From positions 434,001 through 498,000 of the forward strand of contig NZ_JPNB01000002.1 in the NCBI RefSeq assembly GCF_000732725.1: a DNA stretch of 64,000 bases, given 5' to 3'. The notes beneath the pieces are model-generated. The model made no database searches. It had not been told where the DNA came from and saw only the letters and a program-made list of their open reading frames with translations. How positions within the stretch are numbered: the stretch's first letter is position 1; each line of letters starts with the position of its first letter. The position numbers and the translations under genes were made by a program. Shown piece by piece: positions 183 to 47,675 of this stretch. Source of the stretch: Kineothrix alysoides (GTDB lineage: Bacteria > Bacillota > Clostridia > Lachnospirales > Lachnospiraceae).

Positions 183-596
183 TTATACAAGTAATATTTC
201 ATCAAAATCACCTGATAAATTAACATTTAAACTATACGACAAAAATTCATCTTCATCTGTATTTTCTTGTGTAAATGTTTGTTTTGTCGGTCCTTCTAAT
301 AAAAACTCATCTGCATCTGAATTCTCAACAGTTTCCGTTACTCCTGTCGGTCCGGAACATATAAATTCATCTGCATCTGTTGTTTCTATAGTTTTTGTAA
401 TATTAGTAGGTTCTAGCAAAAACTCGTCTGGATCCGAATTCTCCTGACTTCTGGTTTCTTGCGTAACACCAATCATCGAAAATTCATCTGCGTCAGTTGT
501 TTCTACTGTACTTGTTTCATATGTAGTTTTGCCCAAATCAACTATTGTATTCATTTTGCATAACTCTCCATATGTACTCAATATGTGCTTTTTCAT
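183..596 (-). CDS. Multi-core graspetide precursor peptide (thuringinin-type motif)
   Basis: A 137-residue acidic, repetitive protein. After a leader of about 24 residues it carries five copies of TxxTxxxExxDxD, each extended by an invariant Glu-Phe: residues 25-39, 45-59, 64-78, 84-98 and 104-118, spaced 19-20 residues apart. Thr/Ser also recur at motif positions 6 and 10. The motif matches what is known for thuringinin-type (group 3) graspetides, where Thr side chains are esterified to Glu/Asp carboxylates by an ATP-grasp ligase. Such a ligase lies two genes upstream. The ATG overlaps the stop of the membrane protein gene (ATGA) and has a GAGGT ribosome site, so it is translationally coupled. 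A shorter start at Met15 is possible. The ester topology and the mature product are inferred. Confidence 0.85.
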   Translation of the reverse strand: MKKHILSTYGELCKMNTIVDLGKTTYETSTVETTDADEFSMIGVTQETRSQENSDPDEFLLEPTNITKTIETTDADEFICSGPTGVTETVENSDADEFLLEGPTKQTFTQENTDEDEFLSYSLNVNLSGDFDEILLV

Positions 597-1648
597 CTTA
601 CCTCAACCACCTTCATCATCGATTTATCTATCTCTTTATCAGTTAAAACTTCAATGTCCAAATCCTTATATTTATCAAGTTCTTCTATCTCTGTAGGTAC
701 TTCATCATCATTTAATAAAACAATGATATGTGTACACTCTTTTTTCTCTATCTCATAAACCATACTTTGCCAATCGATAGCACTATCGCTATATGGTACA
801 GAAATTTCGTTTTTGTTTACTGTAATAACAATGCTTTCTGATTCAGATAAAACTTTGTTTGACTCATCATTAATTTGTATTGTAGCTCCAAAAGAAATAC
901 CAATTGTCAGTATCAGGAGCAATATTACCCACTCCTGTAAATTTAATACAATGCTCACAAATAATTGCGCCTTATATTTCACTTGTTGCCAATCATATTG
1001 ATACTGAACAACAATTTCCGAACTTCTTTTTTCACTACTTCTCAAATCAGCAAAACTACTCTTATTGATACCACGTACTTTTATTGTTCTGAAAATGAAT
1101 ATGCATACATTAAGTAATGCATATATAGCGATACAAACCATGATTTGTAAAATTACAGATATCTCTTTTAAAGTTGCAAAATCTATTATTGCCAACACAA
1201 TCGGTATAACTGTTAATATTATTGTAGCATAAATGTTTATTTTATCAACACTTGAACTTATTCGCTGCTCTTCATGTTCAATATGATAAAGTAGTTTTTC
1301 TTTTTCGATTTCCAAATCTTCATCTGTTATTTCTGCTATATGGTTCCTAAACCGTTCTTGTATTTCGGCAATTTTTTCATTTTTCAAAAGATTCCCTTCA
1401 ATATCAGTTAAATGCAACAGCTTTATCACAGAAAATCTTTCTTCTTTTATATCATACGATAAAATATATACTATCCTATCTCCCAGCATAATATTTAGAA
1501 CACTAATTCGCAGATGGGCTTGTCTCATTTCTTCTATTTCTAATGTTGCAAAATTATCATCATTACTTAAACTCATAATAGGACAATGCGACCAAATCCA
1601 TAGAATAAAATTTAATGCTATCTTCATCAAGCTTTTCACTATTTCCAT
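593..1648 (-). CDS. Unknown membrane protein of the graspetide operon
   Basis: A 351-residue protein I do not recognise. It has a short hydrophobic N-terminal stretch (about residues 6-19), a charged soluble region with a probable helix (90-135), a membrane pair (about 138-157 and 163-187), another membrane segment (about 228-257), and an acidic C-terminal soluble domain of about 90 residues. It lies between the ATP-grasp ligase and the precursor, with a GGAGAG ribosome site and an ATGA overlap with the precursor, so it is almost certainly co-expressed with them. It has no ABC ATPase, peptidase or known transporter motif. Export helper, immunity protein, or membrane target of the peptide are all possible, and none is shown. 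Confidence 0.7.
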   Translation of the reverse strand: MEIVKSLMKIALNFILWIWSHCPIMSLSNDDNFATLEIEEMRQAHLRISVLNIMLGDRIVYILSYDIKEERFSVIKLLHLTDIEGNLLKNEKIAEIQERFRNHIAEITDEDLEIEKEKLLYHIEHEEQRISSSVDKINIYATIILTVIPIVLAIIDFATLKEISVILQIMVCIAIYALLNVCIFIFRTIKVRGINKSSFADLRSSEKRSSEIVVQYQYDWQQVKYKAQLFVSIVLNLQEWVILLLILTIGISFGATIQINDESNKVLSESESIVITVNKNEISVPYSDSAIDWQSMVYEIEKKECTHIIVLLNDDEVPTEIEELDKYKDLDIEVLTDKEIDKSMMKVVEVR

Positions 1649-1669
1649 TTATACTCTCCTATTTATTTG

Positions 1670-2575
1670 CTAGTCAATTAAATATTTAAATATACATTCA
1701 GAAATTGGAATATCTAATATTTTCTCCAACCATAACCATTGACCATTTGGATTAACTTCCAAAAATATCCATTCATCGCTTTTATTAACTATAAAATCAA
1801 AGGCTCCAAATTTCAATTCGAAATCCTTCATTAATTTTTTGCACCAAATGATTACATTTTCTGGGCACTTTACAATCGAATACTTCAATCCACTGTAATT
1901 TTTTCTCCAGTCCAGCTTGTCTTCTGAATCAAGTCTCACCGCAAATATATTACCATTAATATAAGTCAATCTGATCTCATACTGTTTTTCCTCATAGTTT
2001 TGAATATACAACGGTGTCAATCTAATATCTTCTGATAAATCATCAAAATAATTTGTTTGATACATTTCTATCCCATCACGAACTTTTAATTTTCCCGTTG
2101 TTAATGGTTTGATAATTGACTTTCCTTCTATGTATTTTAAAGTATCTTCTCCGCTGTTTCCAATATACGATTCAGGAATTGAAATACCATTTCGGATCGT
2201 ATATAGTAACTGGAATGTCTTATTTTCTGTTTTTCTTAGTATTGCTGGGCTTGTCAGCACTTTCCCCTCAAAATCATCTGCGATTCCATTAATTAATGAA
2301 ATAATATCTTTTGCTATCATTCCATGATACTCTTTTTCATATTCCGACAAATCTGGTAAAATGGGTTTTCTATAGTATATGCTATATAAACCTGTCTTTT
2401 CAATTTTCCAATCTCCACAGGCTATTGTCCACTGTTTTTTTCCACCAATATTTATTTTATATTTAAATAGCTCATCCACATTCAGTCTATAAAATAATGC
2501 ATCATTATGGTATTTCTTTATCACATAATCAACCGTAACATCCATTGAGCTAGTTATAACCAAAATTGCTCTCAT
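1670..2575 (-). CDS. ATP-grasp peptide ester ligase (MvdC/MvdD-like graspetide synthetase)
   Basis: A 301-residue ligase predicted to use ATP to join Thr/Ser hydroxyls to Asp/Glu carboxylates in the downstream repeat peptide. Visible family marks are the YYRKP motif (residues 67-71), NKTFQL (118-123), the ATP-binding IIKP with Lys156, GAFDF with Asp260, and the metal-site block FLEVNPNGQWLWLE (271-284). Length is normal for microviridin-type ligases. It is the first gene of a three-gene minus-strand operon, with a GGGGG ribosome site just before the ATG and 21 bases before the next gene. I could not pick out a convincing promoter. A general ATP-grasp role is less likely given the repeat precursor beside it. 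Confidence 0.9.
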   Translation of the reverse strand: MRAILVITSSMDVTVDYVIKKYHNDALFYRLNVDELFKYKINIGGKKQWTIACGDWKIEKTGLYSIYYRKPILPDLSEYEKEYHGMIAKDIISLINGIADDFEGKVLTSPAILRKTENKTFQLLYTIRNGISIPESYIGNSGEDTLKYIEGKSIIKPLTTGKLKVRDGIEMYQTNYFDDLSEDIRLTPLYIQNYEEKQYEIRLTYINGNIFAVRLDSEDKLDWRKNYSGLKYSIVKCPENVIIWCKKLMKDFELKFGAFDFIVNKSDEWIFLEVNPNGQWLWLEKILDIPISECIFKYLID

Positions 2576-2687
2576 ATTCCCCCTATCTATTCCACTACAC
2601 TTATAAGAAAGAGAATTATTTTTCTATTTTTTGTCATACAATATGCTCTCTTTCGTTATAAACCAAAAGCAAGATTCAATTGGTTGA

Positions 2688-2714
2688 ATTATTGGTTGAA
2701 TTTCAACCAATAAT
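2688..2714. promoter_or_regulatory. Perfect 13-bp inverted repeat
   Basis: ATTATTGGTTGAA, one base, TTCAACCAATAAT: a perfect dyad immediately after the stop of the AlbA_2 gene and about 110 bases upstream of the ligase gene. A further TTGGTTGAAT half-site lies at 2680-2689. There is no T tract on the minus strand, so an operator is as likely as a terminator. The C-terminal HTH of the neighbouring AlbA_2 protein would be the natural binder, but that is a guess. Confidence 0.45.
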
Positions 2715-2716
2715 TT

Positions 2717-4126
2717 TTATAAAATCAACCAATATCCATCTCTGTTTGAACCTTCTCGCTTAATCTTTTTTTCATCTTTCAATTTTTTTATACAATACTT
2801 AACTTGGTTTGGTGTCCAATGCAAAGTTTCAGATATCTCTTTTGTCTTAATATCAGGTTTTTTATAAATCAAAGACAAAAGAATATCTTCAGGACTTTTG
2901 CCAAAAGTATTTGAATCATTCTTACCTTTAGATTCTACTGTATCAAAAGAATATTCCTCATCCAACGGAACAATTATTCTGAAAACATCGCCTTCAATAA
3001 ACTCCGGTTCTTGTCCTGAATAATATTTCGAATACTTATACAGATTTCTGACTCCTGATCCGAGTCTATCTGACCAGCCAATATTTCTAAAAAATGAAGC
3101 TATAATTGGATTTTTAGGATTAGGTTCCATATTCTCAGGTGTAATCACTCCATCTCCTACTGAACGGCTCGCATTTTCTGTATACATTCTTTTCTTCTCG
3201 ATAACAAATTTAGCGGTATACGAACTTGTAAATTCTCTATGAATTAAAGTGTTCCCAATCATTTCTCGTGTAATAATATTACGTAGATTCTTACGTTCAG
3301 TTCCTTCCAAGAAAAATTTATCTGGCAAATGCTTTCTAGCAAAATCCATTAACTGATCGTAGCTTTCAATCAAATTAGTTCTTACAGTTTCTCTGTCATC
3401 ATATCTATCTACATTAATCTTTCTTACAAGCGCATCTGTTTCATATGCTGGGCAAATATCTCTAATCACATCATCTTTTCCAAGAAGCATAACTGCAGCA
3501 AGATTATATCCCTTTTCTCCAGTGGCTCGGTCTGTCCCGTAAAGCCCTGCACTTCTTAAAAGCTCTTCATTTGTCATTGATTCCCAACCATGCGTACCTT
3601 CAATATTGTTTGTAGCCATTTTTCTAACGCGTGGCAATAAATCTAACCTCAAATCATCTATTGATACATATGGGAAAATCCTTTTTTCAGTAAAAATACT
3701 TTGTTTACGAATGTACATAGATGCAAGCTGTGATGTCGCAGTTACTTTTACATCAGAATCATCTACTCTATCATAGATTTCCTTTTTAAAACTGTGAACT
3801 TCTGCGCTTACAGGAACATGCACATGTATAATTGTTTTTCCATCATACTTAATAATTTCAGGAACAAGATAAATCGTCGGTGATAACAGTATTGGATTAC
3901 TGATAACTTTAATAAAATTCTTAATCATATCTCCAGCTGCTTTTTCTGGAACACCTATTACTGTACCATCATTTAAGACACCCATGAAAATATCACCGCC
4001 AAATCTATTCAGAAAAGAGCAGACACTTTCATAGACATCATTTTCTATGCCATTTCCACAACGCTTAAATTCTACAGCAATTGTTTCTCCAATTTGTAAT
4101 ATAGATTCAAGTTTATGTTGGTCCAT
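2717..4126 (-). CDS. AlbA_2 / HATPase_c_4 / HTH protein (Schlafen-AlbA type regulator)
   Basis: A 469-residue protein of the family often named ATP-binding or 'divergent AAA-4' protein. The N-terminal region (about residues 10-130, with EFKRCGNG and a GGDIFMGV turn) is an AlbA_2 putative nucleic-acid-binding domain. The middle to C-terminal part (about 280-400, NTLIHREF ... GVRNLYKY) is the associated ATPase-like domain. The last 60 residues look like a winged HTH. Such proteins are common in mobile islands, and their targets are mostly unknown. The start has a good AGGAGG-like site. It lies alone between the graspetide operon and the CBASS pair, with about 200 bases of AT-rich sequence upstream. 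Confidence 0.8.
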   Translation of the reverse strand: MDQHKLESILQIGETIAVEFKRCGNGIENDVYESVCSFLNRFGGDIFMGVLNDGTVIGVPEKAAGDMIKNFIKVISNPILLSPTIYLVPEIIKYDGKTIIHVHVPVSAEVHSFKKEIYDRVDDSDVKVTATSQLASMYIRKQSIFTEKRIFPYVSIDDLRLDLLPRVRKMATNNIEGTHGWESMTNEELLRSAGLYGTDRATGEKGYNLAAVMLLGKDDVIRDICPAYETDALVRKINVDRYDDRETVRTNLIESYDQLMDFARKHLPDKFFLEGTERKNLRNIITREMIGNTLIHREFTSSYTAKFVIEKKRMYTENASRSVGDGVITPENMEPNPKNPIIASFFRNIGWSDRLGSGVRNLYKYSKYYSGQEPEFIEGDVFRIIVPLDEEYSFDTVESKGKNDSNTFGKSPEDILLSLIYKKPDIKTKEISETLHWTPNQVKYCIKKLKDEKKIKREGSNRDGYWLIL

Positions 4127-4333
4127 GAATTTACCTCCTAATGGATCTCCTAAATTAATAATTTAATAATTGGATTCTTAAAATTTCAATTACTTCATAC
4201 CAATAACCAAGTTAGCCGATTTTGTAACTCGTCTTCGCTCCACACAACATTATTTAATACTTTTTACATAATTATAATATCTGATTCACAAAATATCAGC
4301 CCTTCATTATTAATCATAACGAGATTGTTTTAA

Positions 4334-5152
4334 TTATATGGCAATATAATTCATTACTTTCTTCAAACATTCTAGACTACTCTCTGTTAAAACTTTTTGC
4401 CCACTACCTGGAGCATATAATAAAAGAATTCCCCATGCTGAATTTGAAGTAAGATAATCAATTAGTACTTTTTCATAACTTCCACTTGCTGCAGATGAGC
4501 TATCTCCCGGTGGTGTCCATCTCCAATCCCCAATTGCTTGATAAACAAAACTATCAATCACAATCCCAGAAAGATGATAACTACTAAAATGATTATCACG
4601 TATAAATCGCAAATGTTTACATGTATCGCAAAATAGTCCATTACTACTTTGATTTTTTATTTTAATAGCTTCTTGCTCAGCTTTAGGGTTCGTAGAACGC
4701 CAATTCCCTCCCATATTTGAATCCGGATATTTATATGAACCATCCCAATTACCAAACCAGTCTAAATTTTTAAATGCAGGTAATATTTCAAATTTCATCC
4801 CATCAAAAAATGTTATTTTCACTACTTGTCCATCCGCTCTAACATCGCTTCTTGGATATGATGTTAAAATAGCTTGCTTAACTGTCTGCAAAAGTCTTGA
4901 TTGTCCATTTCCTTTAAGAGCATCATGGCGCTCATATTCTTTCTCTGGTAAAAGAACCAATATGTCTAAATCACTTGTGTCAATTGCGGTTCCTCTTCCA
5001 TAAGATCCTACATACAAACTGTTCTGTGAGTCACTTGACACATTCCAAAATTCTCTATTTATAGCAGATGTAACTGTATGATAACGCAAAGAAATTTTGC
5101 TTCTTATATCCATAGATATTATTTCTCCACGTTTCTGCACTAAATCACTCAT
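4334..5152 (-). CDS. CD-NTase family nucleotidyltransferase (CBASS cyclase)
   Basis: A 272-residue SMODS-type nucleotidyltransferase predicted to make a cyclic oligonucleotide alarm signal on phage infection. The active site is clear: G49-S50 of GSYGRGT, the Asp pair D61-x-D63 in SDLDILV, and a third acidic residue (Glu122 in KFEILPAF). Its ATG overlaps the stop of the SLATT gene by four bases. A synthase plus membrane effector pair fits a minimal type I CBASS operon. No Cap2/Cap3 or HORMA/TRIP13 helper genes are nearby. The signal nucleotide cannot be told from sequence alone. Confidence 0.85.
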   Translation of the reverse strand: MSDLVQKRGEIISMDIRSKISLRYHTVTSAINREFWNVSSDSQNSLYVGSYGRGTAIDTSDLDILVLLPEKEYERHDALKGNGQSRLLQTVKQAILTSYPRSDVRADGQVVKITFFDGMKFEILPAFKNLDWFGNWDGSYKYPDSNMGGNWRSTNPKAEQEAIKIKNQSSNGLFCDTCKHLRFIRDNHFSSYHLSGIVIDSFVYQAIGDWRWTPPGDSSSAASGSYEKVLIDYLTSNSAWGILLLYAPGSGQKVLTESSLECLKKVMNYIAI

Positions 5153-5712
5153 TCTCTTCCTTCCCTTCTTAATTTTTCTGGAAGACTATCATCAATTTCC
5201 AGTTCAGAAAACCTATTATCTTGTTTTATATTCAATGCAATTCTTGCCTGCTTTACTGCCTTGTCTGTTGTTCTTGGCGCATCGCTATAGATTTCATCAA
5301 CTTGTTTTACTAATTCATTATACTGCTCCATTAACACAGCCACCGTATCTTGCTCCAACCGAATTCTTAATATTAGCAGTTTCAACTCATCTCTTTTATT
5401 CAACAGTTTATGTGCTACAGACGTATGTGACGATATCATATTCTGCAAATCAAATGACCTAAAAAATGCACTTACAAAAACCGAAACAAATGATATTAAA
5501 GCTGATAAAATTTTAACCCATATTTGGTCAGTAAATATCAGCGAAACAATTCCTACCGAAGTTAAAGATGCAGCTAAAATTTTAGCAGTTTCCATGCTTT
5601 TATATTGTTTAGCATATAAATCTGATTGCTTTTCATGTATCTTATGCGACCACATAACGCCGCCAAATGTATTACGAACAGAATCTTCAAATATTTCATA
5701 ATCATTCTGCAT
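5149..5712 (-). CDS. SLATT-domain two-helix membrane effector (CBASS)
   Basis: A 187-residue protein with two adjacent membrane helices (about residues 40-60 and 66-86) flanked by charged helices. This is the SLATT layout, known as a pore-like effector linked to SMODS nucleotidyltransferases. It sits first in the operon and overlaps the cyclase gene by four bases. The predicted role is to bind the cyclase product and breach the inner membrane, killing the infected cell (established for the class, inferred here). Upstream is 140 bases of noncoding sequence after the Mrr-like gene, so the pair has its own transcription unit. Confidence 0.8.
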   Translation of the reverse strand: MQNDYEIFEDSVRNTFGGVMWSHKIHEKQSDLYAKQYKSMETAKILAASLTSVGIVSLIFTDQIWVKILSALISFVSVFVSAFFRSFDLQNMISSHTSVAHKLLNKRDELKLLILRIRLEQDTVAVLMEQYNELVKQVDEIYSDAPRTTDKAVKQARIALNIKQDNRFSELEIDDSLPEKLRREGRE

Positions 5713-5853
5713 AGTTTTTCCCCCATATTAATATTTTTCGGAATTTCTGTAATTCCAAAATACTCTTCAATGTTCTCTGCATGTTTTAAATAATATTAAA
5801 AATCAATCCATCTAGCTTAAAACAACAATGGAAGTTTCCTTGTTTTAACACAT

Positions 5854-6468
5854 TTATGTGCCATCAAACATTGTGTTCTTTATAGTATCAATAACATTTT
5901 TATACATTTCTTTTGTCGGATATATTTCATTATATGGATAATCGGAATCCAAATCCCACTGTAACGCAAAATACTTAGGCATTTGCCTTCTAACAAACAT
6001 TTGTATCTTCAAAAAATCTAAATTTGGTTGAATAGAATTTTGTATATGCTTTACAAACTCATCTACAATCTGAATCAATGTAATGCCATGAGATTTTGCA
6101 AACATAACTGCACCACTTTGATAACCAGATGTTGACATAAAGATGCTCTTATTTGCTCCAAGACTTTGTTGTTTTTGATATAATGAACAAATTTTTTCAC
6201 GTTCAATCGCTCTTGAATATTTTTTACATTCTACAATCATCTTAACCTTTGTTCCCATTATAGTAAATTCTCCAAGAACATCTATCTGATAAGTACCATC
6301 ATTAGACTCAACTTTTTGATTATGTGAAACTGAAAAATCCTTTAAGTTTTCTTGAATAGCATATGCTTGAAGTGTATTCATGCAAAATATTTCAAAATCC
6401 GTAGGCGAAATATCAGCTGATAAACTTCTATATGGATTAATATCACCATTCATATCATCACCCCTCAT
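5854..6468 (-). CDS. Mrr-like restriction endonuclease (PD-(D/E)XK)
   Basis: A 204-residue protein with a PD-(D/E)XK nuclease core of Mrr_cat type: the QIDVLGEF strand with the catalytic Asp, the VECKK motif with Glu and Lys, and the following Gln/Ser-rich helix. Mrr-type enzymes cut foreign or methylated DNA. It begins inside the stop region of the truncated hsdS gene (11-base overlap) and follows the hsdM operon, so it is probably translated with it. A second ATG (6453) five codons in could also be the start. It may be a cassette that replaced the missing part of hsdS and hsdR, or the nuclease partner of a reworked system. Confidence 0.75.
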   Translation of the reverse strand: MRGDDMNGDINPYRSLSADISPTDFEIFCMNTLQAYAIQENLKDFSVSHNQKVESNDGTYQIDVLGEFTIMGTKVKMIVECKKYSRAIEREKICSLYQKQQSLGANKSIFMSTSGYQSGAVMFAKSHGITLIQIVDEFVKHIQNSIQPNLDFLKIQMFVRRQMPKYFALQWDLDSDYPYNEIYPTKEMYKNVIDTIKNTMFDGT

Positions 6469-6694
6469 CTACATTCTCAGCTTTTTCATCAGAAATAAAA
6501 CTTATTGTTTTATCCAAAAAGAGGTTATACTGTGTGTATATTTGACCATAATGAATACACGGTGTCCCATTTTCTACATAATCCTTCTTCTGAAAGTTAC
6601 CGCCTCTGAAAACAGAAGCAACCTCACTGAGCTTTTTATATTCAATGCCATTTGGACATAATTCATGAATCATTTTTTCAAGTTTCATCATCAA
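6458..6694 (-). pseudogene. hsdS: Truncated type I specificity subunit HsdS
   Basis: Only 78 residues, against roughly 380-420 for a normal HsdS. The sequence is a clear start of the first target-recognition domain: CPNGIEYKKLSEVASVFRGG followed by the GxPCIHYGQIYT block. It then stops after VDEG. The second recognition domain and both conserved spacer helices are missing, so it cannot work alone as a normal S subunit. It overlaps the gene upstream by 17 bases and the Mrr-like gene downstream by 11. A deletion junction at the stop is the simplest reading. Confidence 0.85.
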
Positions 6695-7505
6695 ACAATC
6701 CCTCCTTTCGTATAATTTCTAAAAATTTATTGAACTCGATTTTATCTTTAGGGATAATTGGTCTATCAAACAAATCATATAACCCAATCTCTCGTAAATG
6801 CAGTTGCTTTTTTATATTTTCCTTCGATATTGAAACCCACATTTTTTCTCCATATAAGAGATTCGTTTTTATACATCCATCCTGCAGTTTTTGTAAACTT
6901 TCTTCCGTATTAATTCCCATTTCGAATAATGTACCATATTCATTTCTATTATTTTCTGGTATTTTCCTCAAATCTTCAGTATCATTAAAAATAGCAATTG
7001 TCCTCGTTGATACTGACTCTGGTAGTTTTTCATTTCTTCCCGGATGCTTATCAAGCATAATCTGCTCTTCAATTTCTTTTCTTATACCGTTTGCAATACG
7101 AAATAAATCACTATCAAAAGCAACATAATCAAGTGTTATCTGCTCTGGCAAATAATCAGAACAAATATTTTTGACTGATTGAATTTGTTGTTTCATATCA
7201 CTTGTCATATCAGTTAAAGATTCATACTCTTTACTAATGTAGTCGTCATCTTTATGTGCACCGTTTTTATCACGCTCATAATATATTGAGCTTATTACAT
7301 TATCTTCACAAATACGTTTTTTGTCTTTTGGAAAACATTTATCAAGAACTACACAACAGTTGATATAGAACTTTCTTCGTATGTCATTTGTCTTTTCTCG
7401 TAAATTAATATTAGAAATCTGCTTCCCGTGCTCAGAAATATATAAAATTGAGTCAATTGACTTCTTTGCATCGATAAAGTATCGTGCAAGTTCCCATCCT
7501 TTCAT
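6678..7505 (-). CDS. Unknown protein within the type I R-M operon
   Basis: A 275-residue soluble, charged protein with no motif I recognise. It lies between hsdM and the hsdS remnant, starting two bases after the hsdM stop and overlapping hsdS by 17 bases, so it is part of the operon. Extra genes between M and S are often accessory or anti-phage modules carried by type I systems. That is context only. No nuclease, ATPase or HTH motif is evident, and no function is proposed. Confidence 0.65.
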   Translation of the reverse strand: MKGWELARYFIDAKKSIDSILYISEHGKQISNINLREKTNDIRRKFYINCCVVLDKCFPKDKKRICEDNVISSIYYERDKNGAHKDDDYISKEYESLTDMTSDMKQQIQSVKNICSDYLPEQITLDYVAFDSDLFRIANGIRKEIEEQIMLDKHPGRNEKLPESVSTRTIAIFNDTEDLRKIPENNRNEYGTLFEMGINTEESLQKLQDGCIKTNLLYGEKMWVSISKENIKKQLHLREIGLYDLFDRPIIPKDKIEFNKFLEIIRKEGLFDDET

Positions 7506-7507
7506 AA

Positions 7508-9070
7508 CTACACCTCGATTTCTTCGATGATGTTTCGAATGGCCTCTCTCAATTCATCCTCACGCATAACGATTTCTTCAATCTCTGCATTCAGTTTTAC
7601 AATATCAATCTTTTCACGAGTATCCTCTGCCTCTACATAAGTAGATACAGAAAGATTATACTCATTTTCAACAACCTCTTCATAACTTGCCAAATGAGAA
7701 AAGTGTTTCACTTCCTCACGATTTGCAAAGATATCTACGATTCGTTCAATATTCTTAGGTGTGAGCTTATTGTTATTGGTAACCTTAATACACTCATTTG
7801 AGGCATCTACAAATAAGGTCTGATTATCATTCTTATTCTTCTTCATGACCATAATGCAAGTTGCAATACTTGTACCAAAGAACAAATTACTAGGCAACTG
7901 AATAATACAGTCAACAAAGTTATTATCCACTAAGTATTTACGGATTTTCTGTTCTGCACCGCCACGATACATAATACCAGGAAAGCATACAATAGTAGCT
8001 GTTCCATTGGATGCAAGCCATGACAGACTATGCATAATAAACGCAAGATCCGCTTTACTCTTTGGTGCCAGCACTCCAGCTGGTGCAAAACGAGGATCAT
8101 TGATCAGTAATGGATTTTCATCTCCTGCCCACTTGATAGAATATGGTGGATTGGATACTATCAGTTCAAACGGCTCATCATCCCAATGCTGAGGTGCTAT
8201 CAATGTATCTTCGCATGCAACATTGAATTTATCAAAACCAATGTCATGCAAGAACATATTGATTCGGCAAAGGTTGTATGTGGTAATATTAATTTCCTGC
8301 CCATAATAGCCATTACGAACAGCTTCTTTTCCTAAAACGGTTTCCACTTTTAATAAAAGAGAACCTGAACCACAAGCTGGATCGTAAACTTTATTGATTT
8401 CTGTTTTTCCAACGGTTCCTAATCTTGTTAATAATTCTGATACATCCGCTGGCGTGTAAAACTCTCCACCAGACTTTCCAGCATTGGATGCATACATGGA
8501 CATCAGGTATTCGTAAGCATCACCAAAAGCATCGATGGAATGGTCTTTCACATCACCTAAGTTCATCTGTGCAACACCATTTAATAGCTTCACAAGCTTT
8601 TCATTTCTTTTTGCTACAGTAGAACCAAGCTTATTGCTATTTACATCAAAATCATCAAACAAACCTGCAAAATCATTCTTTGCATCACTTCCCTTTGCAG
8701 ATTCTTCTATATTGCGAAATACACTTTCCAGTGTTTCATTTAAATTTTCATCATTTGCAGCTTTTGCCCTAACATTACAGAACAATTCACTTGGAAGAAT
8801 AAAGAAACCTTTTTCTTCTACAAGACCATCTCTTGCTTCTTCTGCATCTTCATCGGACATTTTGGCAAAAGCGAACTCTATATTTCCTGCTTTGATTTCC
8901 CCTTCATTAATATAGCTACAAAGATTTTCTGAAATATATCGATAAAACATCATACCGAGGACATAATTCTTAAAATCCCATCCATCTACTGCTCCTCTTA
9001 ATTCGTCAGCAATTGCCCATATCGCACGATGTAACTCATCACGTTCCTGTTCTTTTTTTGTATCTATCAT
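7508..9070 (-). CDS. hsdM: Type I restriction-modification system adenine methyltransferase
   Basis: A 520-residue N6-adenine methyltransferase, normal length for HsdM. The N-terminal HsdM_N helical domain (about residues 5-150) is followed by the SAM-binding motif I (DPACGSGSLLL) and the catalytic NPPY motif IV (SNPPYS). It normally acts as M2S with HsdS, but here HsdS is a 78-residue remnant and no HsdR gene is in the window. Its start shares one base with the stop of the upstream HTH gene (TAATG coupling). The methylase is intact, but its specificity would need an S subunit from elsewhere. Confidence 0.93.
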   Translation of the reverse strand: MIDTKKEQERDELHRAIWAIADELRGAVDGWDFKNYVLGMMFYRYISENLCSYINEGEIKAGNIEFAFAKMSDEDAEEARDGLVEEKGFFILPSELFCNVRAKAANDENLNETLESVFRNIEESAKGSDAKNDFAGLFDDFDVNSNKLGSTVAKRNEKLVKLLNGVAQMNLGDVKDHSIDAFGDAYEYLMSMYASNAGKSGGEFYTPADVSELLTRLGTVGKTEINKVYDPACGSGSLLLKVETVLGKEAVRNGYYGQEINITTYNLCRINMFLHDIGFDKFNVACEDTLIAPQHWDDEPFELIVSNPPYSIKWAGDENPLLINDPRFAPAGVLAPKSKADLAFIMHSLSWLASNGTATIVCFPGIMYRGGAEQKIRKYLVDNNFVDCIIQLPSNLFFGTSIATCIMVMKKNKNDNQTLFVDASNECIKVTNNNKLTPKNIERIVDIFANREEVKHFSHLASYEEVVENEYNLSVSTYVEAEDTREKIDIVKLNAEIEEIVMREDELREAIRNIIEEIEV

Positions 9071-10359: not shown

Positions 10360-10806
10360 TTAATCTATCGTATCCTGTAAGATTATTTCTACCCTTTTCC
10401 CCTGTACCTTCTCCAGGGAAGAAGTGTTATTTTCTTCCCTATGCGGTTTTACAGAAGGATGAATTTCCATCCTTGCCAAAGTACTTGCTACCGATTCTAC
10501 AATCATAGCTACCATCTTTTGATCATGGACTTCTAATGCCTTTAAGAATAACTCTCTCTGCTCATTTGCCTGCATCTGTAAATACTCCTGCATCTCCAAT
10601 TTGAAATGCTCTTGCTGCTCCATTTGCATTTCATTTCCGTGATAACATTTCAATGCTGCTTTGATATAAGCCCCACTACTACCATATGGATCATTTGCGT
10701 TATCACGGTTATGTCCCATAATTGCTTCATACAATTCTCTTTCATCCTCTTTCGATAGATTTAATCGAAAGGACAAAGATTTCTGCAACTCACTTTTTCC
10801 TGCCAT
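10360..10806 (-). CDS. Small RHH-type partner of the ParM-like segregation protein
   Basis: A 148-residue protein (start at 10806 chosen for its GAGGTGAGG ribosome site; an upstream ATG at 10836 lacks one). The N-terminus (LQKSLSFRLNLSKEDERELYEAI) looks like a ribbon-helix-helix DNA-binding fold. A Gln/Glu-rich probable coiled coil follows (about residues 55-95) and a basic tail. It lies directly downstream of the actin-like gene, where the ParR centromere-binding adaptor sits in type II plasmid partition systems. The ParR role is inferred from position and size, not from clear homology. Confidence 0.55.
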   Translation of the reverse strand: MAGKSELQKSLSFRLNLSKEDERELYEAIMGHNRDNANDPYGSSGAYIKAALKCYHGNEMQMEQQEHFKLEMQEYLQMQANEQRELFLKALEVHDQKMVAMIVESVASTLARMEIHPSVKPHREENNTSSLEKVQGKRVEIILQDTID

Positions 10807-10852
10807 CGCCTCACCTCTAACTCCTGAAAATATCATCTTTGTCTTGCTTCAC

Positions 10853-11767
10853 CTAGAATTTACCTTTTTGCTTTGCCAAGAATTCATATCCCTTTGCATT
10901 TGCCCTAATATCTTCTAGGTAGTGAATATTTGCACCTTTCAAGGTTCCATAATTCTTCATCAACATAGCACCGCCACCTGCATAGATGACTGTTAACATT
11001 TCCAGATCAAATCCCAGTTCTGCTAACTTTGCTTCAATACCTTTTGCAAAGTCTGCAAGTCCTGCTCTAATAATCACCTTACAATCTGTTGGAATATTTA
11101 CGTCCTTTTCAAGAATCATCTGCTGAATCATATCTTCACTGACTCTGCGATTACAATTCTGATATACATTGCTTTTAATGCCTTCCATACACTGAATCAA
11201 TGCTGCTGGAATCGAAGTACTTTCACTTTCTACTGGTACATAATTTCTTGTATGAATCACATCAATTGTTTTCGATCCAATATCTATAATCAGATTTTCT
11301 CTTCCATATTCCCGAAGCTTGTCTGCTATTGCTGCGTAGCACTGTGGAAATACATAAACATCTAAAATCTGAATCTCATAATCCCTACCACAATAGTTAA
11401 ACTGAATCGAATCTTCTCGTAACAGATAATAATAAAAATCTTCTTTTTCCTTTCCAAATCTGCTAAATGGTAAACCAACTGCTAAAATCACATCTGCACT
11501 GTGTTGCTGATAAATATCCATTTCCTTTGCAACTGCAGCTAATGTTAGTAAAAAATAATTCTCATCCTCTGTCTTTGTCTGCATAAGTGGAAGTCTTCCT
11601 TCTCCGACTTTATAATAATTTCCTTGATAAATTAAAGTGTTGTTGGTAAGGGTGGCTTCTCCACCCAATTTTTCAACACCATTTTCAAATGTTGCATGCG
11701 GAGTCTTCATCATGGAAAAACCATGATCAATCCCCACCACCAGTAGTCTTCTATCACTAATATACAT
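10853..11767 (-). CDS. ParM/StbA-like actin-type plasmid segregation ATPase
   Basis: A 304-residue actin-like protein. Phosphate-binding loop 1 is GIDHGFSMMKT near the N-terminus. Loop 2 is IIDIGSKTIDVI in the middle, and the adenosine motif is VIYAGGGAMLM near residue 265. Length and order of motifs match ParM/Alp-type filament ATPases, which push plasmid copies apart. Together with the small gene 47 bases downstream it forms a segregation pair, evidence that this island derives from a plasmid or an integrative element with a plasmid-like phase. Confidence 0.8.
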   Translation of the reverse strand: MYISDRRLLVVGIDHGFSMMKTPHATFENGVEKLGGEATLTNNTLIYQGNYYKVGEGRLPLMQTKTEDENYFLLTLAAVAKEMDIYQQHSADVILAVGLPFSRFGKEKEDFYYYLLREDSIQFNYCGRDYEIQILDVYVFPQCYAAIADKLREYGRENLIIDIGSKTIDVIHTRNYVPVESESTSIPAALIQCMEGIKSNVYQNCNRRVSEDMIQQMILEKDVNIPTDCKVIIRAGLADFAKGIEAKLAELGFDLEMLTVIYAGGGAMLMKNYGTLKGANIHYLEDIRANAKGYEFLAKQKGKF

Positions 11768-11787
11768 AATTGCCTCTCTTTCTGTAG

Positions 11788-11910
11788 CTACTCATTGCTA
11801 CCATACAAATGATCTAATAATTCCAATACTGTCCGAAGAGATTCCAAAATCTCCAAATCCAGTTCCTCTGACATACTAATGTTACATAAATGTTTGTCAA
11901 TCAGTTCCAT
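11788..11910 (-). CDS. 40-residue acidic small protein
   Basis: A 40-codon frame (ATG at 11910, TAG at 11788), overlapping the end of the upstream HTH gene by ten bases and ending 20 bases before the ParM-like gene. The product is acidic and Leu-rich, likely one amphipathic helix. The tight packing in a run of same-strand genes supports it. No function is recognised. Confidence 0.45.
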   Translation of the reverse strand: MELIDKHLCNISMSEELDLEILESLRTVLELLDHLYGSNE

Positions 11911-12311
11911 ACGCTTTGTGTTGGATGTTCCGTATGCGGTGTGCCCGTAATCGAAGGAACCGTTTTCGATTTCTCCGTGAACGGATTTACCGTAATCGGA
12001 TTTTCCAATTGCGGTGGAACTGGTACCTGATGCACTTCAATCACATTTTTACCAAAGCGCCCTCTCCCAGTTCTTTCCTGTCCACCAGTCAAATATCCTC
12101 TTTTCATTAATTCATTCACACTAGACCGGATGCAATCTACTCCGTCTGGTAGAATTTTTGAAAAGCCTTTCAAATTAAAATCCCAATTGTCTGATAGGGA
12201 CAATATTGTTACCAACATTCCTCGATCTCTCAAACTAAGCTTTTGATCAAGTAAAATATCTTTGCTTACATTCACATATAGTCCCTGGGTTTTGTTCTTT
12301 AAAACTGCCAA
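11901..12311 (-). CDS. Short replication-type winged-HTH protein
   Basis: A 136-residue protein starting with TTG (AAAGGAG ribosome site). Residues 15-95 form a helix-turn-helix like those in replication initiators of Firmicute plasmids and integrative elements (SLRDRGMLVTILSL ... DCIRSSVNELMKRGYL). The C-terminus is short and Pro/Thr-rich, so a catalytic or DnaD-like half is missing compared with the 250-300 residues usual for such proteins. Its leader is crossed by a candidate antisense RNA (12364-12426), which would fit copy control. Confidence 0.55.
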   Translation of the reverse strand: MAVLKNKTQGLYVNVSKDILLDQKLSLRDRGMLVTILSLSDNWDFNLKGFSKILPDGVDCIRSSVNELMKRGYLTGGQERTGRGRFGKNVIEVHQVPVPPQLENPITVNPFTEKSKTVPSITGTPHTEHPTQSVWN

Positions 12312-12328
12312 AAGATCACTCCTTTCAT

Positions 12329-12426
12329 TTGAAAAAGGGCGGCAACTATGCTAGAATACATTTATATGTAACGTATATGCATAGTCATGTGCCCAAGCTC
12401 CTGCGCCAACAGGGGCTTTTTCTTTT
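12329..12426 (+). ncRNA. Candidate antisense (countertranscript) RNA
   Basis: On the plus strand TTGAAA (12329-12334), exactly 17 bases, then TAGAAT (12352-12357) make a good sigma-A promoter. About 40 bases after the expected start, AAGCTCCTG (12395-12403) pairs with CAGGGGCTT (12410-12418), followed by TTTTTCTTTTC: a complete intrinsic terminator. The resulting RNA of about 60 bases lies antisense to the gap before the replication-type gene. This is the arrangement of plasmid copy-control RNAs. No plus-strand protein gene fits here. Confidence 0.5.
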
Positions 12427-12445
12427 CTCTAAACTTCATCATCAG

Positions 12446-12637
12446 TTACCTCTTCATACATGCTTCCTCGTAGTAGATACGGTTGATTTTTCCACTCATT
12501 ACAAGCAACTTCGGATTTTCTTTTTTCATTCGCTCCGATAAATCCTTAATAATGGCGTATCCTTTGCTTCGACAAATTCCCCAATCAGCACATACCTCGT
12601 TTACATCTACATAAACTGGTTTCTTCATCTCTTCCAT
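12446..12637 (-). CDS. Small HTH protein of the mobile element
   Basis: A 63-residue protein with a predicted helix-turn-helix (VNEVCADWGICRSKGYAIIKDLSERMKKE), of the short DNA-binding type common next to replication genes of integrative elements. It has a strong GAGGAGAG ribosome site. It is divergent from the XRE regulator gene across a 186-base gap. Confidence 0.6.
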   Translation of the reverse strand: MEEMKKPVYVDVNEVCADWGICRSKGYAIIKDLSERMKKENPKLLVMSGKINRIYYEEACMKR

Positions 12638-12710
12638 ACGTTTCTCTCCTCTCGTGTAATATGTGGAATGGAAATAAATTTATTACTATTCAATTTTCAT
12701 TATACAGAAG

Positions 12711-12783
12711 TATATTTATTTCTGTCAAGTGCAAATTAGAAATATTTTTATTTCTGTTCTTTCTATTTTTTCTATTCTATGAT
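12711..12783 (+). promoter_or_regulatory. Promoter and operator-like repeats before the XRE gene
   Basis: Two direct repeats, ATATTTATTTCTGT (12712-12725) and ATATTTTTATTTCTGT (12742-12757), with an inverted relative GAAATAAAT at 12671, lie between the divergent HTH genes. A TATGAT -10 box is at 12778-12783 with a weak -35. The repeats are likely operators, perhaps for the XRE protein itself. Confidence 0.4.
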
Positions 12784-12823
12784 AAAATGGGTTCATCATT
12801 AAGAAAATGAGGTGATTTTTAAG

Positions 12824-13765
12824 ATGTCAGTTGGACATAAAATAAGAGCCATACGCGATCTACGAGGTATGACTCAAAAAGAACTTGGTATCAAAGCTGG
12901 ATTTTCAGCCGCTACTGCCGATGTTCGAATACGACAGTATGAAAGCCATAAAATGATTCCAAAAGAAGATAAGTTAAAAGAGATTGCAGCTGCTTTAGAT
13001 GTAGATGTATCTGCACTAAAGGATCACGATATTTATTCTGATCTAGATCTGATGCAGATCTTATTTGAATTAGAGGAAAATCACGGACTGGTAATAGAAA
13101 AAGAATCAGATCGGTATGTGTTGTCATTTGACGAGTCACACCCATTGTTTCGATATACCAACTATAAGCTCGACAGCTGGTACCGAGCAAAATCACAACT
13201 TCTATCCCATTCAGAAGATTCTGGATATGATGATAAAGAATATTTACTTTGGAAATACAGATTCCCACTAGATACTATGGAAATAGAAAAAATGAATGCG
13301 GCTAAGGTACAGGAAAAATACAAGCCATTTGTAAATTCATCCTTTTCTATCAAAAAAGTAAATGAATTCATTCTTATGTTTGAGAAATTAATCAGAAATG
13401 GATTTGATATACAGATAGCATCAGCTCCTGAAAGATCCGGTATCGGAACCTTTGTTTGCTGTGCCATATTTAAACATTCAGAATTGTTAGAAGCTACTGG
13501 CGAATCGGCCAATGCTTATACAGAGTATCTTTCTATGGTAAGCTATCTAGAGAAATCGGGAATAGAGATTGAGAGAGAGACAAACTCTTTTGATGGGGAA
13601 ACTCTGTTAGGGATTTATTTTTATAATTCTGTTTTATCCACTGCGCTGAACCATACAGTTCGGGAAATAATTGCAGCTTATAAAGCTGGAACGTTAGATG
13701 ATAAAATACTACAGATGCAATATAAGGATTCGCTGCAGACTTTTAATGTGCCGATTGAGAAGTGA
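12824..13765 (+). CDS. XRE-family transcriptional regulator
   Basis: A 313-residue regulator. The N-terminal 65 residues form an XRE helix-turn-helix (IRAIRDLRGMTQKELGIKAG ... KEIAAALDVDVSAL). The remaining 250 residues are a helical domain I cannot name. The ATG at 12824 is chosen because GAGGTGA stands seven bases before it; a GTG at 12812 is in frame but lacks a site. It is the first plus-strand gene of the island, facing away from the replication cluster. Repeats upstream suggest autoregulation. Confidence 0.8.
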   Translation: MSVGHKIRAIRDLRGMTQKELGIKAGFSAATADVRIRQYESHKMIPKEDKLKEIAAALDVDVSALKDHDIYSDLDLMQILFELEENHGLVIEKESDRYVLSFDESHPLFRYTNYKLDSWYRAKSQLLSHSEDSGYDDKEYLLWKYRFPLDTMEIEKMNAAKVQEKYKPFVNSSFSIKKVNEFILMFEKLIRNGFDIQIASAPERSGIGTFVCCAIFKHSELLEATGESANAYTEYLSMVSYLEKSGIEIERETNSFDGETLLGIYFYNSVLSTALNHTVREIIAAYKAGTLDDKILQMQYKDSLQTFNVPIEK

Positions 13766-14024
13766 TTCTTAGGAAAAGAACCCCCATCTAATTATAGTTT
13801 CTTTGAGATAGGAGGGGTGTTTTCAAACTATGTTTATAATACTGTATAATTTTAGCGTTCGAAAGTACTTCGTGGTTTACTCATAATCTCAATAAAAATT
13901 GAGATCCACCAATAGTTTATAGTAAAAAATGAAAAACTTAACTCTGTTCAAACACTCTGCATAAATGTCATTAGTTAACATATTTGTTATTTTATTTATA
14001 AATAAAAAGAAAGAAGGTTTTTAT

Positions 14025-15131
14025 ATGACAAGCAATAGTACTTTATACTATCCAACAATAGAATTTGCAAATCCACATTGGCTATGGACTGCTTCAATTT
14101 TATGGGATCATATTTATCGTATTGTTCCTGAAAACTATAGTCCTGCTGACAGCAATAATATTAAAGAGTTACTTAGTTCAAGTGACATTATTCATGATAT
14201 TAATCCTACAAATTATGCAAGCAACGCCTTCACGGAATTCAAACAGTTTATGAAAGATAACAAAAAAGCATGGGCTGCTGCTCTAGAAAGTGCAAATCTT
14301 CACGATGAACAGTATGTTAAAATGCACAAAGATAAAGTTGATGTAAGATTAAAACAAATACTATTAGCGCAAAATGGAAGTGTAAGTGATTTTCTTGATG
14401 TTCCAAGTGATATTGCGAATTTTTATATGATGTTTCTTGCTGAAAACATTGCCAAACAGAATAATTTGCATTTAAGTACAGATAAATCTGAAGCATGGTG
14501 TGCAAGGAATTTCTTTGATTTTGACGGAAATATTGATTCGCGAAATTACGAAGAGGATGAAACATATTTATGCGCAATAACCTTTAATCATATGGTACCT
14601 AATGAAATAATTAATTTAACCCCAAATGAGCTAGTAAATTTTCGTAATACATCACGTAATGAACGTCATATATTCTTTGAAGATATAACAAACTTAAAGA
14701 CATCTTTAGAAACCTGCAATGATCCAATTATAATATCAGATATCATCAATGATCATATATTAGATCTCACAGATTCAAGAAAATTATACAAACAAAGATG
14801 TAACGATATTTTCGTTTCACATTTTTTTGGATTAAAAACTATGGTAGTTCCAATTGCAATTCCAGTTTTGAATGCATTCTCAACACTTCCTGATTCACTG
14901 AAAAGTGCATTGGATATATTAGGTGTAGGTATCGGTGTAATTGGCAGCACATTCAATATAAGTAAAGAAATTAAAGCTGCAAGATCCAGTTACCCTGTAA
15001 ACTACTTATTTGAACTAAATCAAAGATGTATGAATCCTCATATGGGATGCTTAGAAGTTGATTGTCATAATATTTTCAGTTCACATCAGGCATTTTTACA
15101 TGAAGACTTAAATCACTTCATATACGATTAA
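14025..15131 (+). CDS. DUF6236 family protein
   Basis: A 368-residue protein (start at 14025 preferred for its AGAAGG site; an earlier ATG at 13965 lacks one). The N-terminal pattern LYYPTIEFANPHWLWTASILWDHIYRIVP matches the DUF6236 family as I know it, shown here only as the pattern of aromatic residues and IVP. A hydrophobic segment (about residues 268-305) may be a membrane or buried helix pair. Function is unknown; the family is seen in accessory islands. Bases 13766-14024 hold a C/G-rich hairpin (about 13788-13822) likely ending the XRE transcript, and nothing else. Confidence 0.65.
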   Translation: MTSNSTLYYPTIEFANPHWLWTASILWDHIYRIVPENYSPADSNNIKELLSSSDIIHDINPTNYASNAFTEFKQFMKDNKKAWAAALESANLHDEQYVKMHKDKVDVRLKQILLAQNGSVSDFLDVPSDIANFYMMFLAENIAKQNNLHLSTDKSEAWCARNFFDFDGNIDSRNYEEDETYLCAITFNHMVPNEIINLTPNELVNFRNTSRNERHIFFEDITNLKTSLETCNDPIIISDIINDHILDLTDSRKLYKQRCNDIFVSHFFGLKTMVVPIAIPVLNAFSTLPDSLKSALDILGVGIGVIGSTFNISKEIKAARSSYPVNYLFELNQRCMNPHMGCLEVDCHNIFSSHQAFLHEDLNHFIYD

Positions 15132-15137
15132 TATCAA

Positions 15138-15185
15138 CATAAAAGGACCGCTATCGCACCTCCCATTCGAGATACGATAACGGTC
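15138..15185 (+). terminator. Hairpin after the DUF6236 gene
   Basis: GACCGCTATCG and CGATAACGGTC pair with one internal mismatch just past the stop codon of the DUF6236 gene. No T tract follows directly, so it is a moderate terminator candidate. Confidence 0.4.
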
Positions 15186-15192
15186 TACCCAT

Positions 15193-15357
15193 TTAAAATA
15201 CTGGTTCTTTAAAATCATCTACCGATTCTACCTGGCACTTTGTATATTCACCATTCGGCTTTTGTTTTAACTTCTCTAGGAGCTGTTCTGTCAGCTCTGT
15301 AAGTTCTGTTTCCTTGATGTAAGACTGAATATGTTCTATATCAATTACTAAGTTACT
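15193..15357 (-). pseudogene. C-terminal remnant of an unknown mobile-element gene
   Basis: An open frame of 54 codons with no start codon, bounded upstream by an in-frame TAG and ending in TAA. Its protein is Glu/Lys/Leu-rich and helical, like the end of a larger protein. Only a remnant reading is supportable. The rest of the gap up to guaA (15358-15540) shows no gene. Confidence 0.35.
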
Positions 15358-15547
15358 CTACTCTGCTTTCTATTGTTATTGTATATATATACTCCCCTAA
15401 TCCACAACCAAATTCATTCTATAGATTAAGGACTATTTTCTAGATAAATAATTATACTATTCTTAAAATCCGTATTTCTTTTCTAAACACTTAAAAACTC
15501 ATCCCGAATCAATAATATCCTACTCCGATTCTAAATTCTGCTGACAT

Positions 15548-15592
15548 TTAGCTGACGCAGAAACTGGGAAGTCGCTTATTTAGCGGCTTCCC
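15548..15592 (-). terminator. Terminator of guaA
   Basis: GGGAAGTCGCT and AGCGGCTTCCC form a strong hairpin, extended by AAAC/GTTT arms, right after the guaA stop codon. It also marks the junction between core chromosome and island. Confidence 0.6.
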
Positions 15593-15604
15593 AGCGTTTC
15601 TAGG

Positions 15605-46640: not shown

Positions 46641-47675
46641 CTATACCGCTTGCTTAAGCGCGGATTCTATGATTTTCTCGCACAGCTGACCGAAGCTTAT
46701 TCCCTGCGCCTGCGCCTCCTGGGGCAGGAGAGAAGTAGGCGTCATGCCCGGCAGAGTATTCGCTTCCAGACAGAAAACTTCTTCCTCATCATTCATCATA
46801 AAATCCATGCGCGCATAATTCTTAAGGCGCAGCACCCGAAATGCCTTCTCCGCCAAAAACTGCATCTCCTTCGTCTTCCTCTCCGAAAGAAGGGCAGGAC
46901 AGGTCTCCACGGCACTTCCCGCCTGATATTTATTCTTATAGTCATAAAAGCCTTGAAGCGGCGCAATTTCAATTACCGGCAAGGCCTTTCCGTCCATGAC
47001 CCCTACGGAAAATTCCCTTCCGTTTATATATTGCTCTATAATGACCTCTTCATCATAGCGAAAGCCCTCTGCTAACGCTGCCTCATACTCTCTCTCGTCC
47101 TTCGCGATACATACCCCTACGCTGGAGCCTCCGCTACAGGCCTTAACGATACAGGGAAATGGTACGGATTTTCGGTCCTCTTCTCCCCGCTTCAGGCTGA
47201 TGCCCCGGGGCACAGGAACGCCGTGGTAATCCAGCAGCTCCTTGGTAAGTCCTTTATCCATGCAGAGCGCAGAGCTCACATAATCAGCTCCGGTATAACG
47301 GATTCCCATCAAATCGAAGCAAGCCTGTATCTTGCCGTTCTCGCCGTTTTGTCCATGCAGAGCCATAAATACCACGTCTGCCGCCTGACAAATGGAAATG
47401 ACATTGGGGCCGAAAAAGTTCTTGTCTCCGTCGCTTCGAAGAGCCTTCACCGCTTCGATATCGGGATTCTCCTCTCCCACTGCTCCGATTTCCTCCGCCC
47501 AGTCGTCGTGCCTTTCGAAAATCGCTTCCGCATCCTCTTTTTCATAGCCTAAGTATACGTCCAGCAGCACTGCCTTGTGTCCGTTATTTTTAAGCGCCTG
47601 ATATATCATTCTTCCGGAACTTAAGGATACATCCCTCTCCGTACTGATTCCTCCTGCCAATACAACTATTTTCAT
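46641..47675 (-). CDS. ddl: D-alanine--D-alanine ligase
   Basis: A 344-residue ATP-grasp ligase. The start MKIVVLAGGISTERDVSL at 47675 (AAGGG site) is chosen over a longer frame with no site. HGQNGENGKIQ, the ATP-binding PCIVKACSGGSSVGV and the metal site FCLEANTLPGMTPTSL are present. It supplies the dipeptide for MurF encoded downstream. Confidence 0.95.
   Translation of the reverse strand: MKIVVLAGGISTERDVSLSSGRMIYQALKNNGHKAVLLDVYLGYEKEDAEAIFERHDDWAEEIGAVGEENPDIEAVKALRSDGDKNFFGPNVISICQAADVVFMALHGQNGENGKIQACFDLMGIRYTGADYVSSALCMDKGLTKELLDYHGVPVPRGISLKRGEEDRKSVPFPCIVKACSGGSSVGVCIAKDEREYEAALAEGFRYDEEVIIEQYINGREFSVGVMDGKALPVIEIAPLQGFYDYKNKYQAGSAVETCPALLSERKTKEMQFLAEKAFRVLRLKNYARMDFMMNDEEEVFCLEANTLPGMTPTSLLPQEAQAQGISFGQLCEKIIESALKQAV

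Follow-up and report, generated by a model that had tools for sequence, protein, structure and literature searches.

A probable thuringinin-type graspetide operon and its three-helix membrane partner in an apparent mobile island of Kineothrix alysoides

In a 64,000-nucleotide stretch of the Kineothrix alysoides genome (contig NZ_JPNB01000002.1, positions 434,001 to 498,000; hereafter the window), a three-gene operon at 183-2575 encodes an ATP-grasp ligase, a membrane protein with three predicted helices and a small precursor peptide that carries five exact copies of TxxTxxxExxDxD, which we take to be the group-3 (thuringinin) core motif. We consider it highly probable that these genes, which lie in an apparent mobile island, make a graspetide (omega-ester peptide) like thuringinin, in which case the core would be closed by esters, the membrane protein would take the place of a transporter and the product would act as an inhibitor. 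Here, we set out the evidence from the precursor, the ligase and a small clade of related operons before then covering the membrane partner, the genomic setting and the alternatives.

The operon and its repeated core

All three genes lie on the minus strand of the window, where the list of open reading frames gives the ligase gene (1670-2575, 301 aa), then the membrane-protein gene (593-1648, 351 aa) and last the precursor gene (183-596, 137 aa, five cores), homologues of which occur at five other loci. The precursor ATG overlaps the stop codon of the membrane-protein gene by 4 bases (ATGA, 596-593), and translation of the two is therefore probably coupled. A promoter and terminator scan returned nothing above chance.

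The first-pass annotation, made from the letters alone, had described five exact cores spaced 19-20 residues apart and each followed by Glu-Phe, and this description holds: strict matches start at residues 25, 45, 64, 84 and 104 (spacing 20, 19, 20, 20), EF directly follows every one of them, and core positions 6 and 10 are occupied by Thr or Ser. On the minus strand, core 1 (480..524) reads TYETSTVETTDADEF, core 2 (420..464) TQETRSQENSDPDEF, core 3 (363..407) TNITKTIETTDADEF, core 4 (303..347) TGVTETVENSDADEF and core 5 (243..287) TKQTFTQENTDEDEF. Strict T..T...E..D.D has no match outside the precursor in six frames of the whole window, and in 20,000 shuffles of the precursor residues a single strict match arose in 82 and more than one in none. 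A direct-repeat search gave more than three copies solely in the core-encoding region. The locus presents what is expected of a graspetide, namely an ordered Thr/Ser and Asp/Glu core in a small precursor adjoining a ligase.

Ahead of the cores, the N-terminus of the precursor (MKKHILSTYGEL) carries the motif KHILSTY at residues 3-9 (570..590, minus strand), identified by alignment and by a leader scan as the counterpart of Phhx(1,2)h, the graspetide leader motif described as present in about half of precursors (PMC8939145). At the same position the five related precursors have KHLLSMY, KHVLSNY, KRILSKY, KPYIANY and KHILSNY, giving His at the Pro place in four of the six members, Arg in one and Pro in one (KPYIANY). 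As judged by alignment, the window leader appears to be the usual graspetide leader motif with His in place of Pro, and the short leader, which had been put forward as a novelty, is thus probably the usual one.

The ATP-grasp ligase

The ligase had been called MvdC/MvdD-like, and profile scores bear this out: it reaches 168.7 bits with TIGR04187, 140.8 with MvdC, 101.2 with MvdD and 70.3 with the grasp-with-spasm model, compared with 40 for the RimK family, so that the best maturase models exceed RimK by more than 100 bits. A ligase clustering outside the peptide-modifying ATP-grasp clade had been named in advance as the outcome that would count against a graspetide; these scores do not place the window ligase outside it. 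Its nearest relatives of solved structure are AMdnB (7m4s, E 9.4e-28), 5ig8 (E 1.4e-25), a structure that carries only the name 'ATP grasp ligase', and CdnC (7mgv, E 9.6e-24); AMdnB and CdnC we take to be graspetide ligases. Searched against its own genome at E 0.01, the ligase matches itself alone, in keeping with the single ligase of the thuringinin type. A second RimK-domain protein in the genome (G000:C2:480740-481258, about window 46740-47258) lies 44 kb away, with a domain score of 22.7 bits where the ligase has 22.9. According to a published survey, one ligase suffices, and every graspetide characterised by then was a protease inhibitor (PMC8939145).

Relatives of the ligase are sparse. 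At E 1e-10, in samples of genomes that overlap and with the own genome counted each time, they occur in 1 of 16 genomes at genus level (the own), in 3 of 299 at family level (the other two being 55% and 27% identical), in 2 of 295 at order level and in 8 of 398 at phylum level. The earlier label 'Lachnospiraceae' fits the presence of the operon in a second genome of that family (G175). In the family of another carrier genome, G794, six of 14 genomes match the ligase, five of them weakly and across model positions of about 105-303.

A clade of related operons

Five other loci carry the same operon: three (L012, L013 and L014) rank in the best 80 of 208 genome loci, one (L005) comes from a genome of the same phylum and one (L100) from a contig of a virus collection. 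Their ligases are 73% (L012, uncultured Clostridiaceae), 59% (L014, Bacterium D16-51), 55% (L013, Lachnospiraceae SIG292), 45% (L005, a genome of the same phylum) and 43% (L100, the virus-collection contig) identical to that of the window. The order ligase-membrane-precursor, which the first-pass annotation had remarked upon, proves to be a real trait of the clade, being found at all six loci in which the three genes are visible (window, L012, L013, L014, L005 and L100); in the five relatives the junction between membrane-gene stop and precursor start ranges from a 4-base overlap to a gap of about 2 bases. In a tree of 94 rows, which has no outgroup (no RimK) and weak deep forks, and in which L014 is represented by its matched part, the ligases of seven loci form one group with support of 100/100. 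The additional member, L101, belongs by ligase sequence only, on a long branch, and lies at a contig end without visible partners. Copies of the same locus were left out of the counts (L002, L003, L006, L007, L008, L010, L011, L092, L094, L104 and L105, and in the tree also L111 and L112), and L106-L110 gave no tree row.

Strict cores number five in the window, five in L012, six in L013, three in L014, three in L005 and two in L100, while a looser anchor, E..D.[DY]E., collects 28 cores (5, 5, 6, 3, 4 and 5, respectively). Leaving aside E8, D11 and E14, which are fixed by this anchor, position 1 is Thr in 26 cores, Ser in one and Asn in one, position 4 is Thr in 27 and Ser in one, and position 13 is Asp in 27 of 28. 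The spacing of threonines and acids is constant across the clade, and the spacers between cores vary. The Glu-Phe reported as invariant in the window is common in the clade, with Phe at position 15 in 23/28 cores, its Glu being part of the search anchor; of the Thr/Ser reported at positions 6 and 10, the latter stood up as frequent (24/28), but position 6 is not fixed in the relatives (19/28). The tail of the window precursor, DFDEILLV (186..209, minus strand), is retained as DFD[ES]ILL[VI] in three of the six aligned precursors (window, L012 and L014).

In searches of plasmids, the operon DNA gave a single 6% match, in a ligase gene of a Nostoc plasmid, the window membrane protein gave chance-level matches only (best E 4), and neither the precursor (with the low-complexity filter on) nor the membrane protein of a relative gave any.

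Comparison with known graspetides

The first-pass annotation's thuringinin-type assignment, with a single ligase, is supported by the core matches and the ligase scores. With the thuringinin type (group 3) of Bacillus thuringiensis, the operon shares the repeated core, exact in all five window repeats, and one ATP-grasp ligase. Thuringinin is described as trivalent, with three cores and two ester links per repeat (PMC12291112), against five cores here. The extra E-F after each core, the His for Pro in the leader and the final place of the precursor may be further differences from thuringinin.

Two features that had been offered as novelties are already on record. Makarova et al. (2022; PMC8939145) report an uncharacterised membrane protein specific to thuringinin loci (cluster 18, 198 occurrences), most of which lack known transporters, and guess that it is a transporter itself; in the window, too, a membrane gene stands instead of a transporter gene. 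Their cluster 13 comprises 250 multi-core precursors that have repeats of group 3, 5 or 6 and resemble one another in the leader. In description, these clusters resemble the window clade, with multi-core precursors that share a leader and a membrane protein mostly without a transporter. None of the terms defense, mobile, phage, plasmid or immunity occurs in the main text of that paper.

Ten graspetide operons with TxTxT...DSD or TKTxVxREDDDD-like cores (L016, L018, L021, L031, L032 and L063; L034, L095, L096 and L102) share with the window the ATP-grasp ligase and a three-helix membrane protein, and nine of them have by scan a leader of the form [KR]P..hydrophobic..aromatic (L034 reads RPIILDN). 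They differ in core spacing, in the C-termini of the membrane proteins and in gene order: L095 and L096 have membrane-precursor-ligase, the others precursor-ligase-membrane. Rosaritide and corallotide resemble the window operon in having an additional conserved gene, and corallotide in having five repeated motifs, but they depend on a SurA/PpiC-like protein and on an oxygenase with its helper rather than on a membrane protein of this kind; the same source reports more than 20,000 predicted graspetides, along with cases in which other partners are required (PMC13097080). RiPPs (ribosomally synthesised and post-translationally modified peptides) have been linked in general terms to phage defence through co-expression in ocean data (PMC11118758).

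The membrane partner

The membrane partner (593..1648, minus strand), homologous in the five other clade operons, consists by hydropathy and charge of an N-terminal region, an E..R......K motif at residues 126-136, three predicted transmembrane helices (137-155, 165-183 and 241-259) and a C-terminal domain. The 57-residue loop behind helix 2 is basic (9 K/R, 5 D/E), and the last 92 residues, at the C-terminus, are acidic (10 K/R, 24 D/E); by the charge rule the C-terminus is therefore predicted outside and the loop inside. The rule does not hold throughout, since the N-terminal 136 residues, inside under the same topology, are acidic too (16 K/R, 26 D/E).

Similar proteins accompany many related ligases. 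A layout rule (two close helices, a loop of 35-85 residues and a third helix) gave candidates at 44/105 ligase loci, a figure that still contains copies and false picks, and hand selection combined with a profile search placed a three-helix family at 29 of 94 non-duplicate loci, namely the six of the window clade and 23 others. Five of these 23 were found by a profile in whose building they were not used; L023 and L097 match it in two pieces and L009, at a contig start, weakly (E 1e-7). In this sample, which was drawn by similarity to the window ligase and is not a census, the partner occurs at 29/43 non-actinobacterial and 0/51 actinobacterial loci (E 1; organism labels of the tree). The leader scan found a likely precursor near the ligase at 6/6 clade loci and, in the wider set of 23, at 13, missing 10, with leaders such as KPLIFEF, RPFIGNF and KPFIYNF; it also returned four open reading frames that are not precursors, one each at L001, L016, L019 and L099.

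The clade proteins and the wider family, both picked by the same helix layout, were compared by profile. After trimming, with 18 members, the comparison scored 44.7 (probability 91%, E 1.1e-6), a value reached by none of 100 block-shuffled controls (maximum 35.3, mean 24.2), and the E..R......K motif ahead of helix 1 is common to both groups. At full length, a first set gave 9.3% (E 0.0035) and a second 0.5% (E 0.11), and searches with single profiles at E 1 did not cross between the two. Because the trimmed comparison is strong, the full-length comparison weak and the single profiles do not cross, remote homology of the membrane partner to the three-helix proteins by ligases at the 23 other loci is graded as likely, not certain.

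The C-terminal domain (residues 270-351; 593..841, minus strand) is predicted to have a beta-alpha-beta-alpha-beta-beta, OmpA/CagT-like fold and to lie outside the cytoplasm. Its AlphaFold 2 model is confident (mean predicted local distance difference test, pLDDT, 92.5; predicted TM-score, pTM, 0.79) and superposes on CagT (8yo6) with Z 8.3 and a root-mean-square deviation of 2.2 across 74 of 82 residues. Many OmpA/MotB-like entries follow at Z 5-6, a range equally occupied by DegV/FakB. Foldseek gave a best E of 0.0027 (RusA) and nothing at 0.001, and the RusA, FtsZ and chorismate-mutase matches have TM-scores, by query length, below 0.6. From this model, contact of the domain with the cell wall or envelope is a reasonable guess. 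The model of the whole protein is poor (pLDDT 66, pTM 0.44), and structure matches of its helical part were discarded as ordinary helix bundles.

An identity with SLATT or PycTM was sought because the surrounding island holds a SLATT effector. Neither appears among the Pfam matches of the six clade membrane proteins, no confident match was found, and an hhalign comparison of the partner with the SLATT_4 protein of the window was weak (score 14.2, E 0.33); the identity is retained as no more than a lead. When 10 relatives of the membrane protein were scanned at E 10, three gave a match: L016 to a two-transmembrane (2TM) effector (E 0.01), L022 to PycTM (E 0.046) and L032 to a CorA-like model (E 0.008).

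Genomic setting

Beside the operon, profile scans recognise an AlbA-type regulator (2717-4126), a cyclase of the cyclic-oligonucleotide-based antiphage signalling system (CBASS; SMODS oligonucleotide cyclase, 4334-5152), an overlapping SLATT_4 2TM effector (5149-5712), an Mrr-like nuclease (5854-6468) and the type I methylase hsdM (7508-9070); between the last two lie a 78-aa frame that resembles by eye the start of HsdS (6458-6694) and a 275-aa protein without assigned family (6678-7505). The observation that no transporter or protease stands alongside the operon agrees with a scan of nine window proteins of 183-9070, in which no such family was recognised; genes on the operon's other side (in L094) were read as open reading frames alone. 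There, downstream of the operon, L094 has two tandem paralogues read by eye as similar (6694-7821 and 7895-9025; 375 and 376 aa), each with a zinc-ribbon-like start and membrane helices. Close to the G794 operon, L092 2563-3187 reads by eye as a small RelE/HigB-like gene with a helix-turn-helix gene after it, probably a toxin-antitoxin pair.

The operon looks like a resident of a mobile island. Further along the window, Pfam identifies a ParM-like actin (10853-11767), and guaA lies at 15605-17146, a gene that is a frequent landing site of islands. The ParM-like gene near guaA (window 10360-17146) suggests an island resembling a plasmid or an integrative and conjugative element (ICE), with the operon at its far end. 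The window contains no tRNA genes. Elsewhere in the clade, L012 lies near a relaxase of the MobA type and near a reverse transcriptase like those of retrons or defence-associated reverse transcriptases (DRT), L013 adjoins ParA and ParB, and in L100, a viral-classed contig, a serine recombinase (904-2529, Pfam) and what reads by eye as another of its kind (2532-4148) stand directly ahead of the operon; in the scanned parts of L014 and L005, mobile-element genes have no Pfam support. Mobile-element genes are thus found near four of six clade loci, counting the ParM-like gene of the window, and the operon cassette is therefore probably mobile cargo.

Two of the 23 wider loci lie in phage records, Leptospira phage LalZ_80412 (L102, 59111-60699) and the unannotated faecal phage record MT835913 (L103), where a related, graspetide-type ligase is followed by a three-helix membrane protein; graspetide operons would here be phage cargo. 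L102 has a multi-core precursor, with the leader KPLIFDY, immediately ahead of the ligase.

Proposed maturation and alternative explanations

Under the thuringinin assignment, the ligase would bind the N-terminal KHILSTY leader and phosphorylate acidic side chains in each core, and the conserved threonines would attack the phosphorylated acids to close esters. Each core would become a small double ring with two esters, up to ten per precursor. The three-helix protein would most likely receive, anchor or export the product, substituting for an ABC transporter, and its outer domain may tether it at the cell wall; the mature product would most likely be a multivalent protease inhibitor.

Several findings weigh against this account. 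The ligase scores below every curated NCBIfam cut-off, and the leader Pro is replaced by His or Arg in the window and in four of the five relatives, so that the published motif is not matched literally. Between leader and core 1 the window precursor has no GG-like doublet that would explain maturation. One L100 core lacks T1 and another D13, and the L014 ligase is broken across two frames (L014 5001-6060), with the membrane-gene frame open from 5917 and its first ATG, GTG or TTG not before 6055, a copy that is either decaying or affected by an assembly error. Finally, the thuringinin filing draws on the core motif and on published locus descriptions: the best 80 of the 208 genome loci do not include the thuringinin locus, and the plasmid matches listed for three ligase queries (40 of 83, 60 of 78 and 12 of 88) include no Bacillus plasmid.

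The lack of a recognised protease or transporter and of a clear cleavage site could also be read to mean that the crosslinked peptide is not secreted but is retained in or at the cell, where it would control the three-helix protein, itself the effector of a membrane-acting conflict or anti-phage module. The CBASS cyclase, the SLATT effector, the Mrr-like nuclease and the methylase beside the operon fit this picture, as do the reverse transcriptase and relaxase near L012, ParA/ParB at L013, the large recombinase at L100 and the two phage records. Unrelated cargo nevertheless accumulates in islands, a comparison with PADLOC models at E 0.01 gave no match for any of the three operon genes, and of the ten relatives of the membrane protein only L016, L022 and L032 match anything even at E 10. 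We regard such a module as unlikely, and give a similarly low probability to its broader form, in which graspetide operons with a three-helix partner would be a distinct mobile two-part system of ICE-like islands and phages, the unsecreted peptide and the membrane protein together serving in defence or competition at the membrane.

It is very unlikely that the cores are instead ordinary acidic repeats that receive glutamate or some other residue from the ATP-grasp enzyme, in a RimK-like ligation, without forming ester rings. The ligase does match RimK (PF08443, 21.8 bits, cut-off 21) and the precursor is rich in acids (23% D+E), but the maturase models score well above RimK, the spacing of threonines and acids is kept despite variable spacers, and a counterpart of the graspetide leader motif is present. 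Slighter still is the chance of a dead or drifting remnant: the split L014 ligase, if it reflects decay, would speak for it, but in the window all three genes have open frames and are coupled, and the motifs are retained among relatives whose ligases are 45-73% identical.

Implications

If the assignment to the thuringinin kind is right, the clade adds to it members from Clostridia whose precursors each hold three to six cores, strict or nearly so, and a five-ring scaffold that may be usable for engineering. The clade has its own gene order and its own leader variant. What appears to be new here is the apparent remote homology of the partner to a wider three-helix family, together with the predicted OmpA/CagT-like domain that it bears in this clade, probably outside the membrane; among the titles listed in literature searches none is about this clade, the subscription literature being mostly outside the scope of the search, and we make no claim that the clade is unpublished. 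The distribution of the membrane partner suggests an old and widespread companion of these ligases, and it is its role that would decide between inhibitors destined for export and peptides that act at the producer's own membrane.

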